Shown here piece after piece: positions 7,441 through 11,935 of a DNA stretch of 11,935 nucleotides (its first letter is position 1; every line of letters starts with the position of its first letter). Under the pieces are notes generated by a model, which did not search any database, was not told the origin of the DNA, and was given only the letters and a program-made list of their open reading frames with translations. The position numbers and the translations under genes are program-made. The stretch is from Tannerella sp. (GTDB lineage Bacteria; Bacteroidota; Bacteroidia; Bacteroidales; Tannerellaceae): the NCBI GenBank assembly GCA_031283785.1, contig JAITBC010000454.1:1-11935 (forward strand). Direction: 5' to 3'.

Positions 7441-7584
7441 GTGCCGATAGCAAACCCCATCTATGATCATGTCCTGACGGACGACGGCCGTGTGGCACGC
7501 AAGTTCATATCCGCCATTACCGGCGAGGAAGCGGCAGAACTCTCCTTCGCCCCGCAGGAATACAACCCCGCCATCTCGGATTAA
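7441..7584 (+). pseudogene. N-terminal relic of a PD-(D/E)XK nuclease family transposase
   Basis: From GTG 7441 to TAA 7582-7584 there are 47 codons reading VPIANPIYDHVLTDDGRVAR and then KFISAITGEEAAELSFAPQE, ending YNPAISD. This closely resembles, from memory, the start of Bacteroidota PD-(D/E)XK nuclease family transposases (of the form 'ANPIYDVVFKYLMEDN.VAKL.ISAIIGEE...'). Those proteins are about 300 aa, so nearly the whole gene is missing, including all catalytic residues. A few residues after 'YD' also appear to be deleted. A stop (TGA 7426-7428) precedes the frame, so nothing extends it upstream. The end of the relic lies inside the first unit of the 21-bp tandem repeat. I consider it a dead fragment rather than a functional small protein. 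Confidence 0.6.
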
Positions 7585-7803
7585 GCTCCGAGCATTTCGT
7601 ATTAAGCTCCGAGCATCTCGTATTAAGCTCCGAGCATCTCGTATTAAGCTCCGAGCATCTCGTATTAAGCTCCGAGCGTCTCGTATTAAGCTCCGAGCGT
7701 CTCGTATTAAGCTCCGAGCATCTCGGATTAAGCTCCGAGCATCTCGGATTAAGCTCCGAGCGTCTCGTATTAAGCTCCGAGCGTCTCGGATTAAGCTCCG
7801 AGC
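7573..7803. repeat. 21-bp tandem repeat, 11 contiguous units (VNTR-like)
   Basis: Eleven units of exactly 21 bp run without spacers. The consensus is RTCTCGKATTAAGC followed by TCCGAGC. Only three columns vary: position 1 A/G, position 3 T once (unit 2), and position 7 G (units 1, 8, 9, 11) or T (the rest). Each unit is an inverted repeat, CTCGKA..TCCGAG around TTAAGC, with a perfect 6-bp stem when position 7 is G. A second hairpin (CGAG, 3 nt, CTCG) spans each junction. Because 21 is a multiple of three, four of six frames stay open, giving DARSLIR heptads on the minus strand; one plus frame has TAA in every unit. I see no start or context that makes any of these frames a likely gene. Confidence 0.95.
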
Positions 7804-8111: not shown

Positions 8112-8208
8112 GACTTTAATGCGTTCTATTTTATTTACTTCCGGCGCTGTTTATTCCGATAGGCAATGCCCACCGTGGACTTTAATGCGTTCTATTTTAT
8201 TTACTTCC
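8112..8208. repeat. 31-bp perfect direct repeat, two copies 66 bp apart
   Basis: The copies are at 8112-8142 and 8178-8208; each starts GACTTTAATGCGTTC and ends TTTATTTACTTCC. The 35 bp between them are not repeated. They lie 100-200 bp upstream of the ECF sigma start and upstream of its proximal promoter. They could be paired regulator sites or the result of a local duplication; sequence alone does not decide. Confidence 0.9.
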
Positions 8209-8309: not shown

Positions 8310-8897
8310 ATGAATTTATTGGAGCAGAAATTAGTAGCCGGTATACTCCATGACGACGAGTCTGCCTTTTGTGAACTGTATGCCATGTACAGGAACAGGC
8401 TGCTTTTTTTTGCCATGAAATTTCTTAAATCGCAGGAATTAGCAGAGGATGTTTTTCAGGATGCATTTGCCTCCGTATGGTTGAATCGCCGCTTCCTGAA
8501 CCCGAACAGGCCGTTTGCTCCCTATATTTACGCCATTGTCAAAAATCGTGTCCTGAATCTGCTGGCCGACATGGACAGGGAACAGGAAGTGAAAAATGCG
8601 ATTTTTTCGCAGGCTGTTGATTTCGACAACAGCACGCACGACGGGATTATGGACGCCGATTTGAATAATCTGTTCAAAAAAGCGCTGGAACAGCTGACAG
8701 CGCAGCAAAAACGTGTTTTCGAAATGAGCCGGCTGGAAATGAAATCGCACCGGGAAATTGCCGGCATATTGCATATTTCCGTCCATACCGTCCAGCAGCA
8801 TATCTCCGCCTCATTAAAAATTATCCGCTCCTACCTGCGCAAATATGCGGACATACACGCCGATCTCTTTTTACTGCTGCTCCTGTTAAATGGTTGA
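8310..8897 (+). CDS. ECF-type RNA polymerase sigma-70 factor (Bacteroidota family)
   Basis: This 195-residue protein has sigma region 2 at about 20-88 ('FCELYAMYRNRLLFFAMKFL', 'AEDVFQDAFASVW') for core binding and -10 recognition, a short linker, and region 4 at about 125-176 ('LTAQQKRVFEMSRLEMKSHREIAGIL' type) with the helix-turn-helix 'HISVHTVQQHISASLKIIRSYL' that reads the -35 box. It ends in a leucine-rich tail (about 184-195, ADLFLLLLLL), which I recall as usual in Bacteroidota members of the family. I chose ATG 8310; an in-frame start at 8166 would add 48 hydrophobic, low-complexity residues across promoter P2. It is followed after 138 nt by its presumed anti-sigma gene. It probably drives the downstream susC-like operon when released, as in FecI/FecR/FecA systems. 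Confidence 0.92.
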   Translation: MNLLEQKLVAGILHDDESAFCELYAMYRNRLLFFAMKFLKSQELAEDVFQDAFASVWLNRRFLNPNRPFAPYIYAIVKNRVLNLLADMDREQEVKNAIFSQAVDFDNSTHDGIMDADLNNLFKKALEQLTAQQKRVFEMSRLEMKSHREIAGILHISVHTVQQHISASLKIIRSYLRKYADIHADLFLLLLLLNG

Positions 8898-8953: not shown

Positions 8954-8997
8954 ACGGAAAGTTAAAGATTGTTTTACGGAAAGTTAAAGATTGTTTT
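8954..8997. repeat. 22-bp perfect tandem duplication in the sigma/anti-sigma gap
   Basis: Each copy (8954-8975, 8976-8997) begins ACGGAAAGTTAAAG and ends ATTGTTTT. The pair ends 38 nt before the anti-sigma ATG. The core AGATTGTTT occurs once more at 10044-10052, just after the anti-sigma gene. It may be a paired binding site or simple duplication. Confidence 0.9.
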
Positions 8998-9035: not shown

Positions 9036-10040
9036 ATGGAACAGGAAAAAACAACAAATACAGGCGAAGTGCTGAACGACCGGTTAAACCGGTATATCAA
9101 CGGTTTGTACACTCGTGCGGACGTAGAAGCCTTGCGGGAGGCTATGGCACGCGGCGAAGGATATGAACAGACAGGCGAAGCCATGGACAGAGTATGGGAG
9201 GAATACAGCGACGTCCCGACGCCGTTGCAGCAGAGGCAATCCAGAGACGAAGCCCGGCAGTTGTTGAAACGCCTCCGCCGACGGGAAAAACACGTTTCTC
9301 TTCGCCGGATATGGAAATACGCCGCAGCGGTGTTGCTGATACTTGCCTGCGGGACGGGTTATTTCCTTTCTTCCGGCAGGACGAATGACGAAATTCCCTG
9401 TACGACCGTACGGGTGGCACACGGGAAACAGGAACGGCTCACCCTGCCCGACGGTACGAAAGTGATTCTCAATGCCGGAACGGCTTTCTCCTGCCCGCAG
9501 TCCTTCCGCGGCGAAAAACGAACGGTGCAACTCGACGGCGAAGCCTTTTTCGATGTCGCCCGGAACCGTTCCAAACCCTTTGTCGTGCAAACCGGAGACG
9601 CCGACATCGAAGTACTGGGCACGTCATTCAACGTGAAGGCATATGGCGAAGACGAGTTTATTGCCGTCACCGTCGAAAGCGGGAAAGTGAAGGTCAACAT
9701 GGAAGACGCCATGATGCAACTGCTGCCGGGCGAACAGCTCTTTTTCGATAAAATCGGTAACGAGGTTTACCGCAACCGTGAAAACACCGGAAAAACAAAA
9801 TCGTGGATATCCGGATATCTGTATTTCAATAAAACGCCTGTCCAGAGCGTGATCAATGAATTGATGCGGCGATACGACTGCGTCATCGAATTTGAAGGCG
9901 GCAAAATACCCGGCGAATACCTCTCCGGAGTGCATGACAACAAGACGCTGGAGGCCGTCCTGAACTCGATCCACTACACGACGGGCATCAAGTACCGGAA
10001 AGAAGAAAACGGTAAAATCGTGCTCTACGAGAGTAAATAA
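9036..10040 (+). CDS. FecR-type transmembrane anti-sigma factor with C-terminal DUF4974 domain
   Basis: This 334-residue inner-membrane protein has an N-terminal cytoplasmic helical part (1-90, 'LNRYINGLYTRADVEALREAM') expected to hold the sigma factor, and one membrane helix at about 92-111 (IWKYAAAVLLILACGTGYFL). The periplasmic FecR beta domain (about 124-220) contains 'LPDGTKVILNAGTAF' and 'VQLDGEAFFDVA' with 'GTSFNVKAY'. The C-terminal DUF4974 domain (about 262-332, 'FNKTPVQSVINELMRRYDC') is structurally related to STN domains and is typical of Bacteroidota FecR proteins. It should sense the ligand-loaded receptor through the receptor's STN domain and then free the sigma factor. ATG 9036 follows a TTTG-containing AT-rich leader; the gene lies between the sigma and susC genes, the classic order. 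Confidence 0.93.
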   Translation: MEQEKTTNTGEVLNDRLNRYINGLYTRADVEALREAMARGEGYEQTGEAMDRVWEEYSDVPTPLQQRQSRDEARQLLKRLRRREKHVSLRRIWKYAAAVLLILACGTGYFLSSGRTNDEIPCTTVRVAHGKQERLTLPDGTKVILNAGTAFSCPQSFRGEKRTVQLDGEAFFDVARNRSKPFVVQTGDADIEVLGTSFNVKAYGEDEFIAVTVESGKVKVNMEDAMMQLLPGEQLFFDKIGNEVYRNRENTGKTKSWISGYLYFNKTPVQSVINELMRRYDCVIEFEGGKIPGEYLSGVHDNKTLEAVLNSIHYTTGIKYRKEENGKIVLYESK

Positions 10041-10090
10041 AACAGATTGTTTAACCTTAAAAATCAAATCCTATGGACACTTCATGACAT

Positions 10091-10129
10091 CAGAAAAGAA
10101 AAGAGGGGAAAGCGAAAACCGCACTCCCC
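10091..10129 (-). terminator. Rho-independent terminator on the minus strand, between anti-sigma and susC genes
   Basis: Read on the minus strand, GGGGAGTGCG (10129-10120), a GTTTT loop (10119-10115) and CGCTTTCCCC (10114-10105) form a ten-step stem with eight Watson-Crick pairs, one G-T wobble and one mismatch. It is followed at once by TCTTTTCTTTTCT (10104-10092). The plus strand has no T-run after the hairpin, so the element is directional. There is no minus-strand gene that it could serve except a transcript starting inside the susC leader. Confidence 0.75.
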
Positions 10130-10222
10130 CTCCCCGTTGACCCCGTTCCATACCGCAAGAATGGACCCTTCGGTACGGGAACAGACAAAAAAAACAGTTA
10201 CTTAAATTAACATGCTCTATTT
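10091..10222 (-). ncRNA. Predicted cis-antisense small RNA over the susC leader (DonS-like)
   Basis: A minus-strand promoter at 10260-10229 and the terminator at 10129-10091 define a transcript of about 130 nt with no protein-coding content. It contains a second hairpin: GTTCC..TACCG (10145-10149, 10151-10155) pairs with CGGTA..GGAAC (10171-10175, 10178-10182), two 5-bp helices with a small internal loop. The RNA would be fully complementary to the susC 5' untranslated region and to the possible upstream susC start at 10212. Antisense RNAs in this position, between anti-sigma and susC genes, repress glycan-use loci in Bacteroides (DonS of B. fragilis is the named example). Promoter, structure and terminator are seen; expression and function are inferred. 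Confidence 0.65.
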
Positions 10223-10228
10223 AAATTG

Positions 10229-10260
10229 CAAATCTATGAATAATAATAATATCAGACAAA
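10229..10260 (-). promoter_or_regulatory. Consensus Bacteroides promoter for the antisense RNA
   Basis: On the minus strand TTTG (10260-10257) is followed by a 20-nt spacer and TAGATTTG (10236-10229), an exact fit to TTTG / TAnnTTTG. The predicted start is near 10222. The -7 box overlaps the A of the preferred susC ATG (10236), so housekeeping transcription would begin just in front of the susC coding region and run away from it. Confidence 0.65.
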
Positions 10261-11935
10261 TAACAGGGATAAAATACTGGAGTTACCTTCTTTTCGTCCT
10301 CTTAACGGTATTGAGTGTACAAAACCTGTCCGCTCAGTCGCCGGGACCGAAAAACGTAACGGTGAACGTGCAAAATCAACCCCTTGGAGAGGTGCTCGAA
10401 GATCTTTCCGGACAGACGGGGCTGAAATTCTTCTACAGTGAAAGCGTGGTAAGCGGCAAAACCGTCACGCTCAAATTCTCAAACGCGTCTGTGAACGCCG
10501 TGCTGAGCGAAATCAGCCGGCAGACGCAACTCAACTTCAGCCGCGAAAACAACACCATCACTCTCAGCACGCAGACACGGGCGCCGGACAGCGCCCCGGC
10601 AGGCGCTCCGCGCAGGGTGAAAGGCATTGTAATTGACGAATTCGGCGAATCGGTAATCGGGGCGAATGTGGTGGAAAAGAACCGTACCTCGAATGGCGCC
10701 GTCACGGCTGCCGACGGCAGTTTCAACCTGGAACTTTCGCCCAACTCCGTCATTGCCGTTTCCTACATCGGCTATGCCACACAGGAGATTAACATCGGAA
10801 ACAGCATTGTAATCAACGTGCAGTTGAAGGAAGACACCCGAACGATCTCCGAAGTGGTCGTCACGGCGCTTGGTCTCAAACGCGAAGAAAAGGCGCTGGG
10901 CTATGCTACGCAAAAGGTGAGCGGAGAACAGTTTGACAAGGTGAAAGGCGCCAATATCGCGACCAGTCTTACAGGGAAAATATCCGGACTGACCATCCTC
11001 AACTCCACTGAATTTATGCAAAGTCCTACCATCCGCCTCCGGGGAGAAAGCCCGATTTTCATTCTGGACGGCGTACCCACGAATGTTTCTTTAGCCGATT
11101 TGAATCAGGATGACATCCTGAGTATCGACGTACTGAAAGGAGCGACGGCTTCCGCCCTCTACGGCTCGCGGGGTGGAGGAGGAGCTATCATGATTACTAC
11201 GAAAAAGGGCGGTAAAAAAGGATTTTCCATATCGGTTAACACAAGCAACATGTTCTATATGGGAGAACTGGCCATTCCGGAAACGCAACCTTCTTACAGC
11301 GCCGGATATGGAGGCAAATACAATACGGACGACGAAGTCTGGGGCGACAAACTCGATGCCGGCCGCATGTATTATCAGTGGGATCCGGCAACGAAACAAA
11401 TGAGTGCCGCGCCCGTAGAACTGGTATCCAAAGGAAGGGATAACTTTAAAAACTTCCTGGTTCCCAGCCTGATTACGAACAGTACGGTGAGCGTATCCCA
11501 GCATGGTGAAAACGGAAGCGTCCGTTCATCTTTCTCTTACCTTTATAATAAAGGGCAATATCCGAATACCTATGCCAACCGGTTCCGCTATACGGTAGGA
11601 GGAGAAATGAAACTGGGAGAGAAAGTATCCGTCGAAGGGACGATGGGATTTACCAAAACCCTTTCGCCCAATACTGCCGGGTATGGATATACGAATCAGG
11701 GTTATATCTATAACATTCTGGTCTGGACGGGTACGGAGTATGATTTGAGGGATTACAGGGACTACTGGATCAAAAAGGATGAACTGCAAAACTGGCATTA
11801 TAACAACTGGTACGATAATCCTTACCTGATGGCCTATGAAAAACTGAACGGAATAGACAATAACAGGACCAATCTCATGCTTTCGGCCAACTGGCAGATA
11901 CTTCCCTGGATGAAGGCTACCCTGCGTTCGGGAGG
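10236..11935 (+). CDS. SusC/RagA-family TonB-dependent receptor with N-terminal STN domain, 3' end outside window
   Basis: The 566 visible codons stay open to the window end. The signal peptide is at about 1-34 (KYWSYLLFVLLTVLSVQNLSAQ). The STN signalling domain (about 40-113) includes 'LGEVLEDLSGQTGLKFFYSE'. A carboxypeptidase-regulatory-like beta domain follows (about 127-198, 'VKGIVIDEFGESVIGANVV' to 'VQLKED'), then the SusC signature 'ISEVVVTALGLKREEKALGY' (205-223), and then the plug with 'DGVPTN', 'IDVLKGATASALYGSRG' and 'GGAIMITTKKGG' (to about 327). The first barrel strands come after this. SusC proteins import oligomers across the outer membrane with a SusD lipoprotein, expected next. 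The STN domain marks a receptor that signals to FecR. An in-frame ATG at 10212 would add eight residues; I prefer 10236 because of the signal peptide. The ligand cannot be told. Confidence 0.95.
   Translation, partial: MNNNNIRQITGIKYWSYLLFVLLTVLSVQNLSAQSPGPKNVTVNVQNQPLGEVLEDLSGQTGLKFFYSESVVSGKTVTLKFSNASVNAVLSEISRQTQLNFSRENNTITLSTQTRAPDSAPAGAPRRVKGIVIDEFGESVIGANVVEKNRTSNGAVTAADGSFNLELSPNSVIAVSYIGYATQEINIGNSIVINVQLKEDTRTISEVVVTALGLKREEKALGYATQKVSGEQFDKVKGANIATSLTGKISGLTILNSTEFMQSPTIRLRGESPIFILDGVPTNVSLADLNQDDILSIDVLKGATASALYGSRGGGGAIMITTKKGGKKGFSISVNTSNMFYMGELAIPETQPSYSAGYGGKYNTDDEVWGDKLDAGRMYYQWDPATKQMSAAPVELVSKGRDNFKNFLVPSLITNSTVSVSQHGENGSVRSSFSYLYNKGQYPNTYANRFRYTVGGEMKLGEKVSVEGTMGFTKTLSPNTAGYGYTNQGYIYNILVWTGTEYDLRDYRDYWIKKDELQNWHYNNWYDNPYLMAYEKLNGIDNNRTNLMLSANWQILPWMKATLRSG

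Follow-up and report, generated by a model that had tools for sequence, protein, structure and literature searches.

A predicted DonS-type antisense RNA opposite the susC leader of a Tannerellaceae-like bacterium, and a start-stop micro-ORF beside its terminator

Many glycan-import systems of Bacteroidota are placed under sigma/anti-sigma pairs, and many also carry an antisense RNA. The locus analyzed here raises the question of whether the gap between an anti-sigma gene and a susC gene encodes such an RNA on its minus strand and, if so, what this RNA would do to susC. The window, i.e., the whole stretch of 11,935 nucleotides that was analyzed, contains the following genes around the gap:

8310..8897, plus strand: ECF sigma factor gene with Sigma70_r2 and r4 domains (Pfam); 8310 is the likely start, taken from the candidate starts
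9036..10040, plus strand: FecR-type anti-sigma gene (PF04773 and PF16344)
10236..11935, continuing past the window end, plus strand: SusC-type TonB-dependent transporter gene (STN, CarbopepD_reg_2 and Plug domains)

The longest susC reading frame opens at 10212; the start was reset to the ATG at 10236, because CAAATCTATGAATAA at this position is common to the window and to L087, the closest relative for which DNA was compared. The best FecR relatives from named organisms are the Tannerella MAG proteins P0003 (81% identity) and P0005 (78%), and proteins from termite-gut metagenomes are 58% identical to the FecR of the window. Taking into account that these are the nearest relatives, the host is most likely an insect-gut Tannerellaceae bacterium. 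The region also holds several repeats. Eleven copies of a 21-nt unit (7572-7803), open in frames of both strands as SRIKLRA and SLIRDAR repeats, and two identical 31-nt direct repeats lying 66 nt apart (8112-8142 and 8178-8208) are located 5' of the sigma gene. A perfect 22-nt tandem duplication, possibly a regulatory site, is found between the sigma and anti-sigma genes (8954-8997); L087 also has a stretch resembling one of its copies, which continues into TTTTCATATCCCAGATGA.

The gap shows the following elements on its minus strand:

10257..10260, minus strand: -33 box TTTG, within susC codons 8-9
10229..10236, minus strand: -7 box TAGATTTG; the plus strand reads CAAATCTA, the final A of which belongs to the susC ATG
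10091..10222, minus strand: predicted DonS-type antisense RNA of ~130 nt, from promoter, fold and terminator, with deduced ends
10142..10185, minus strand: body hairpin, from the fold, kept in L087
10100..10135, minus strand: intrinsic terminator stem-loop, from the terminator list and the fold
10091..10099, minus strand: U-rich terminator tail, from sequence and fold

The housekeeping (sigma-ABfr) promoter of Bacteroides has the form TTTG / TAnnTTTG. The minus-strand promoter TTTG-N20-TAGATTTG (10260-10229), proposed in a preliminary description of this DNA, is an exact match to this consensus. With susC starting at 10236, the -7 box consequently overlaps the A of the start codon. The pattern TTTG-N19..21-TAnnTTTG has a single match in the 11,935 bases, which is this promoter, while 0.18 matches are expected in the shuffled window and at least one match occurs in 35 of 200 shuffles. 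An origin by chance was considered and ruled out by the unique exact match together with the -7 register conserved among FecR-SusC gaps (see below).

The preliminary description had claimed a complete noncoding unit of about 130 nt, and its promoter, folded body and terminator are indeed all present, with a predicted length of 132 nt between ends (~10222 and ~10091) set by consensus spacing. The minus strand of these 132 nt folds with -46.1 kcal/mol (z -3.7), a value reached by none of 200 shuffles; for the plus strand of a longer, 195-nt stretch, z is -1.9 and 9 of 200 shuffles are equally good. The internal hairpin previously placed at 10182-10145 is recovered in a slightly longer form, as it reaches from ~10185 to ~10142 in the fold. 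The terminator, described as ten steps at 10129-10092, appears as a stem of 15 pairs (~10135-10100) followed by the U-rich tail; as 10130-10106, it occupies the first row of the terminator list of the window, which as a whole holds 21 entries against 14.1 expected by chance. A coding role of the minus strand was ruled out, since only MLI* and one open frame of 20 residues are present, with no gene-like sign. An Rfam comparison of the window and of the loci of 20 relatives gave no family above cut-off, and four weak matches near the gap all remain below.

The comparison with close relatives indicates both retention and absence of the element. L087 (genome G031, FecR 78%) is one of three matches among 41 genomes; FecR relatives of more than 78% identity were compared as proteins. 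It keeps an identical -7 box, the body hairpin and the terminator, while its -33 box is CTTG only (three of four positions) and shifted to N21. Its fold reaches -40.3 kcal/mol on the minus strand vs -25.3 kcal/mol on the plus strand, and one pair of its body hairpin forms as G-U on the minus strand only, the plus strand having C-A in its place. Box and terminator are also present in L002 (FecR 53%) and in three Parabacteroides species (L004, L006 and L009). On the other side, L001 (FecR 63%) and L003 (54%) retain FecR and SusC, with gaps of 11 and 31 nt, without the antisense RNA. The preliminary description had regarded absence of the element from relatives keeping the genes as evidence against it: such absence is found in L001 and L003, and in L087 the element is kept. 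Consequently, the element can be lost; within the group, the predicted unit is lost, or gained, and the near-touching FecR and susC genes of L001 and L003 suggest that the whole module is gained or lost between relatives.

A wider survey of 234 loci plus the window gave 187 FecR-SusC pairs, 171 of them distinct (window included): 136 with long gaps (110-450 nt), 33 with short gaps and two with wider ones, which were excluded. A set of 30 control SusC genes served for comparison. The retrievals comprised the best 80 of 574 loci, 50 of 69 P. goldsteinii FecR matches, 30 of 51 matches in four Tannerellaceae genomes and 30 of 56 B. faecis SusC matches; ORFs failing the FecR or SusC profile and loci without a hydrophobic start were removed before counting. 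Thresholds of our own choice served to call terminators: 6 pairs or more in the stem, -11 kcal/mol or lower, and 6 T in 9. The minus-strand -7 box lies exactly over the susC start (CAAAnnTATG) in 79 of the 136 long gaps, compared with 3/33 short gaps and 2/30 controls (Fisher p ~1e-7 each). Minus-strand terminators are similarly distributed (101/136, 3/33 and 2/30, respectively) and occur in 11 of 408 shuffled long gaps. Furthermore, 74 of the 79 box-bearing long gaps carry box and terminator together. The arrangement is common, not universal: 57/136 long gaps are without the exact -7 register and 35/136 without a detected minus-strand terminator. Three of the 30 controls are unclean, namely L010, with a FecR gene 764 nt upstream and one of the two boxes, and the FecR loci L025 and L078; among the 27 clean controls there are one box, one terminator and no gene with both. 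The difference persists when each FecR cluster is represented by one randomly drawn member: at 50% identity or more (mean of 50 draws), the box is found in ~51/90 long and 2/27 short clusters, and at 40% identity in ~23/45 vs 2/20. Clustering at 35% identity left only a few clusters and was uninformative.

A hold-out set of further loci from eight genomes was scored with the same code; the loci are new, while each genome was already represented in the first set. Two of the retrievals comprised 30 of 143 and 30 of 88 matches, and 8 exact duplicates were removed, as were 12 loci whose FecR shared 60% identity or more with the first set. In the 56 long gaps, the box is present in 28, the minus-strand terminator in 44, both in 24 and a plus-strand terminator in 3; box and terminator occur in 3 of 17 short gaps. 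For Mucilaginibacter and the Chitinophaga/Sinomicrobium/Chryseosolibacter group, 19 of 37 long gaps carry the box and 17 of 37 carry box and terminator. Because of this last value, the register rule holds well outside Bacteroides, and the predicted architecture extends well beyond Bacteroidales, into other classes of the phylum. With the antisense promoter fixed over the susC start codon, candidates can be found by a simple rule that needs only the DNA sequence.

The reading preferred here, with a probability of about 0.7, is that the FecR-susC gap carries, on its minus strand, the gene of a DonS-type cis-antisense RNA that most likely lowers susC and forms a one-way switch with the sigma factor. 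The sequence itself shows a promoter and a terminator, the structure with its strand, and the conserved register; transcription at this locus, the repression and the switch are inferred. The housekeeping sigma factor (sigma-ABfr) would start the RNA ~13 nt 5' of the susC start codon, and the polymerase would pass one or two hairpins and stop at the intrinsic terminator before reaching fecR. Between ~13 and ~145 nt 5' of the start codon, the predicted RNA is complementary to the susC leader along its full length, so that it could base-pair with the region where ribosomes load and with all of the leader upstream of that region. When the ECF sigma factor is inactive, the RNA would most likely lower susC through this pairing, either by blocking ribosome loading or by marking the leader for cleavage. 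Strong sigma-driven sense transcription would in turn silence the antisense promoter, since this promoter sits in the path of the sense polymerase, and the mutual exclusion would make the switch one-way. Repression of susC by the RNA, the off switch proposed in the preliminary description, is put at roughly two in three: DonS acts negatively, with an example in B. fragilis, yet for the PUL antisense RNAs of B. thetaiotaomicron, correlations of either sign with the cognate susC are recounted (PMC10994844).

The antisense unit may also be real and yet act through its transcription, with polymerase at or leaving the antisense promoter blocking or colliding with sense polymerase, and the terminator serving only to shield fecR. 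That the promoter coincides exactly with the susC start codon, and that transcription is convergent, would both fit such an effect. Pure interference would, however, have no need of a structured body, and at the 74 loci with box and terminator, where the predicted RNAs span 75-143 nt (median 96.5), the bodies are more structured than their shuffles: with the terminator removed, the median z of 70 loci is -2.7 on the minus strand vs -0.9 on the plus strand, and z is -1.5 or lower in 50/70 and 25/70, respectively. Interference as the sole action is therefore considered unlikely. The idea that the antisense transcript is a side product which regulates nothing agrees with the lack of the element in L001 and L003, and with the caution of the authors of PMC7366714 that cis-antisense candidates need not all be functional; it is rendered improbable by the recurrence of register, terminator and strand-specific structure among distant relatives.

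The conserved structure could, finally, belong to the sense leader, as a susC riboswitch or attenuator, with the minus-strand signals as its mirror image. The plus strand of the window does fold to some degree, as seen from its z value, and the raw strand difference in folding energy is partly a matter of composition, because the leader strand is A-rich. Nevertheless, the minus strand folds better at 73 of the 74 loci, and still at 69 of 74 after terminator removal, while a plus-strand terminator is found in 1 of the 136 long gaps of the first set. Together with the Rfam result for the window and the loci of 20 relatives, the terminator count rules out a sense attenuator or riboswitch, and a sense origin of the structure is hardly credible. 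The preferred reading of a DonS-type antisense RNA is accordingly the one retained below.

A further element belongs to the sense strand. Past the FecR stop and ahead of the antisense terminator, an ATG followed by 0-7 codons and a stop is recurrent:

10048..10063, plus strand: leader motif TGTTTAACCTTAAAAA, preceding the micro-ORF
10073..10087, plus strand: micro-ORF ATG GAC ACT TCA TGA (MDTS), from position and frame statistics, just outside the antisense terminator

In L087, the micro-ORF has the same frame and one codon more, owing to a 3-nt insertion. Among the 101 long gaps with a minus-strand terminator, 86 have 40-400 nt from the FecR stop to the tail and were eligible; 80 of these 86 contain an ATG 18-48 nt before the antisense tail. 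In 77 of the 80 loci, the frame of this ATG reaches a stop within 7 codons, compared with 26 and 25 for the other two frames, and frame 0 holds the first stop in 59/80 (p 1.7e-13). With one representative per FecR cluster, the in-frame stop is found in ~23/24 loci at 40% identity (other frames 4 and 8) and in ~46/48 at 50% identity (15 and 18). The median distance from the micro-ORF stop to the tail is 15.5 nt. Since the offset of the ATG (near -31 from the tail) was picked from the data post hoc, the hold-out was scored with the same code: 24 of 36 eligible loci have the ATG, and 21/24 of these have a stop close by in its frame, vs 10 and 7 for the other frames; frame 0 holds the first stop in 16/24 (p 9e-4). 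The hold-out ATG is found in 10/11 loci of Bacteroidales and 14/25 of the others, which makes the micro-ORF patchier outside Bacteroidales. When the first ATG past the FecR stop is taken instead (box and terminator loci), the signal is weaker, with a stop within 7 codons in 60/73 and first in frame 0 in 43/73. In long gaps without a detected terminator, the first ATG lies within 7 codons of a stop in 23/31, and control SusC genes display no excess of near stops (42/118 ATGs). The simplest reading of this frame-specific stop excess at variable distance is that the micro-ORF is selected for translation. No earlier report of the start-stop micro-ORF was found in the open-licence literature searched, a body of literature to which the founding DonS paper does not belong.

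Ahead of the micro-ORF ATG, TGTTTAACCTTTAAA is matched at 10 or more of 15 positions in 58 of 79 loci, and the same applies to 27-49% of susC starts, depending on the set. This motif occurs ~25 nt 5' of start codons, at 10048-10063 in the window and at many susC starts, and it is a possible general translation-initiation context of the phylum. A plus-strand ECF promoter at TGTTTAACC...ATG was also considered; given that the distance to the ATG varies, that ordinary susC starts share the motif and that near stops are enriched in frame 0 only, the arrangement is better read as a translation-initiation context.

Taken as a whole, DonS-type loci across Bacteroidota might be three-part modules, composed of an antisense RNA with its promoter tied to the susC start codon, an extended leader and a sense-strand micro-ORF just beyond the terminator. 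A ribosome parked or recycled on the micro-ORF, at the edge of the target, would then decide whether the antisense RNA, Rho or an RNase gains the leader, and the micro-ORF would represent the translational arm of the PUL switch. This proposal is tentative and, as judged at present, doubtful; in the more modest form, the micro-ORF could tune the contest between sense and antisense transcription. As another conserved part of these loci, the micro-ORF could be missed in work directed at the antisense RNA. If translated, it makes the relation between antisense RNA and susC testable by point changes, and it could bear on why correlations are positive in some antisense-susC pairs and negative in others.

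With regard to known systems, the micro-ORF resembles the two-codon minigene of the axe-txe leader, which raises expression in cis (PMC8708949), in that both are start-stop mini-ORFs in a leader; the minigene alters expression of the downstream gene, concerns other genes and comes from a study whose abstract mentions no antisense RNA, so that the likeness bears on the micro-ORF only. For FopS (RF04319) and GibS, small RNAs of B. thetaiotaomicron, action at translation starts is described, and in the case of FopS these are susC starts (PMC11697453). Unlike the present RNA, they work in trans and reach several mRNAs by means of a short seed at the 5' end, and the best FopS score of the window, 20.6 bits vs a curated cut-off of 56, falls at 10000-10080, outside the antisense RNA.

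The closest counterpart is the DonS family of PUL-associated cis-antisense RNAs (Cao et al. 2016, as recounted in PMC7366714, PMC10994844 and PMC9723704), with lengths of 78-128 nt, an orientation divergent to susC and a negative effect on its expression (PMC7366714). The predicted RNA of the window shares with it a short, self-contained form and an antisense, divergent orientation relative to a susC homologue. It lies on the minus strand over the leader, opposite a gene with SusC domains, has a sigma-ABfr promoter and an intrinsic terminator that would give a discrete short RNA, and its position is conserved in related FecR-SusC loci. Such a promoter is reported for 52% of the B. thetaiotaomicron cis-antisense candidates (PMC7366714) and is thus usual, not strictly defining. 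At ~130 nt with deduced ends, the RNA stands at or just over the upper edge of the published range, to which the lengths predicted in the survey are close. DonS is known from Bacteroides, whereas the present host would be an uncultured, Tannerellaceae-like bacterium in which the RNA is recognized from DNA alone. Collectively, the DonS-type membership put forward in the preliminary description is well supported by architecture, with the same geometry in dozens of FecR-SusC gaps, and the element is assigned on this basis as a putative DonS-type antisense RNA gene. The DonS architecture itself was already known; what the present analysis contributes is the fixed register rule, the occurrence outside Bacteroides and the start-stop micro-ORF that goes with the RNA.
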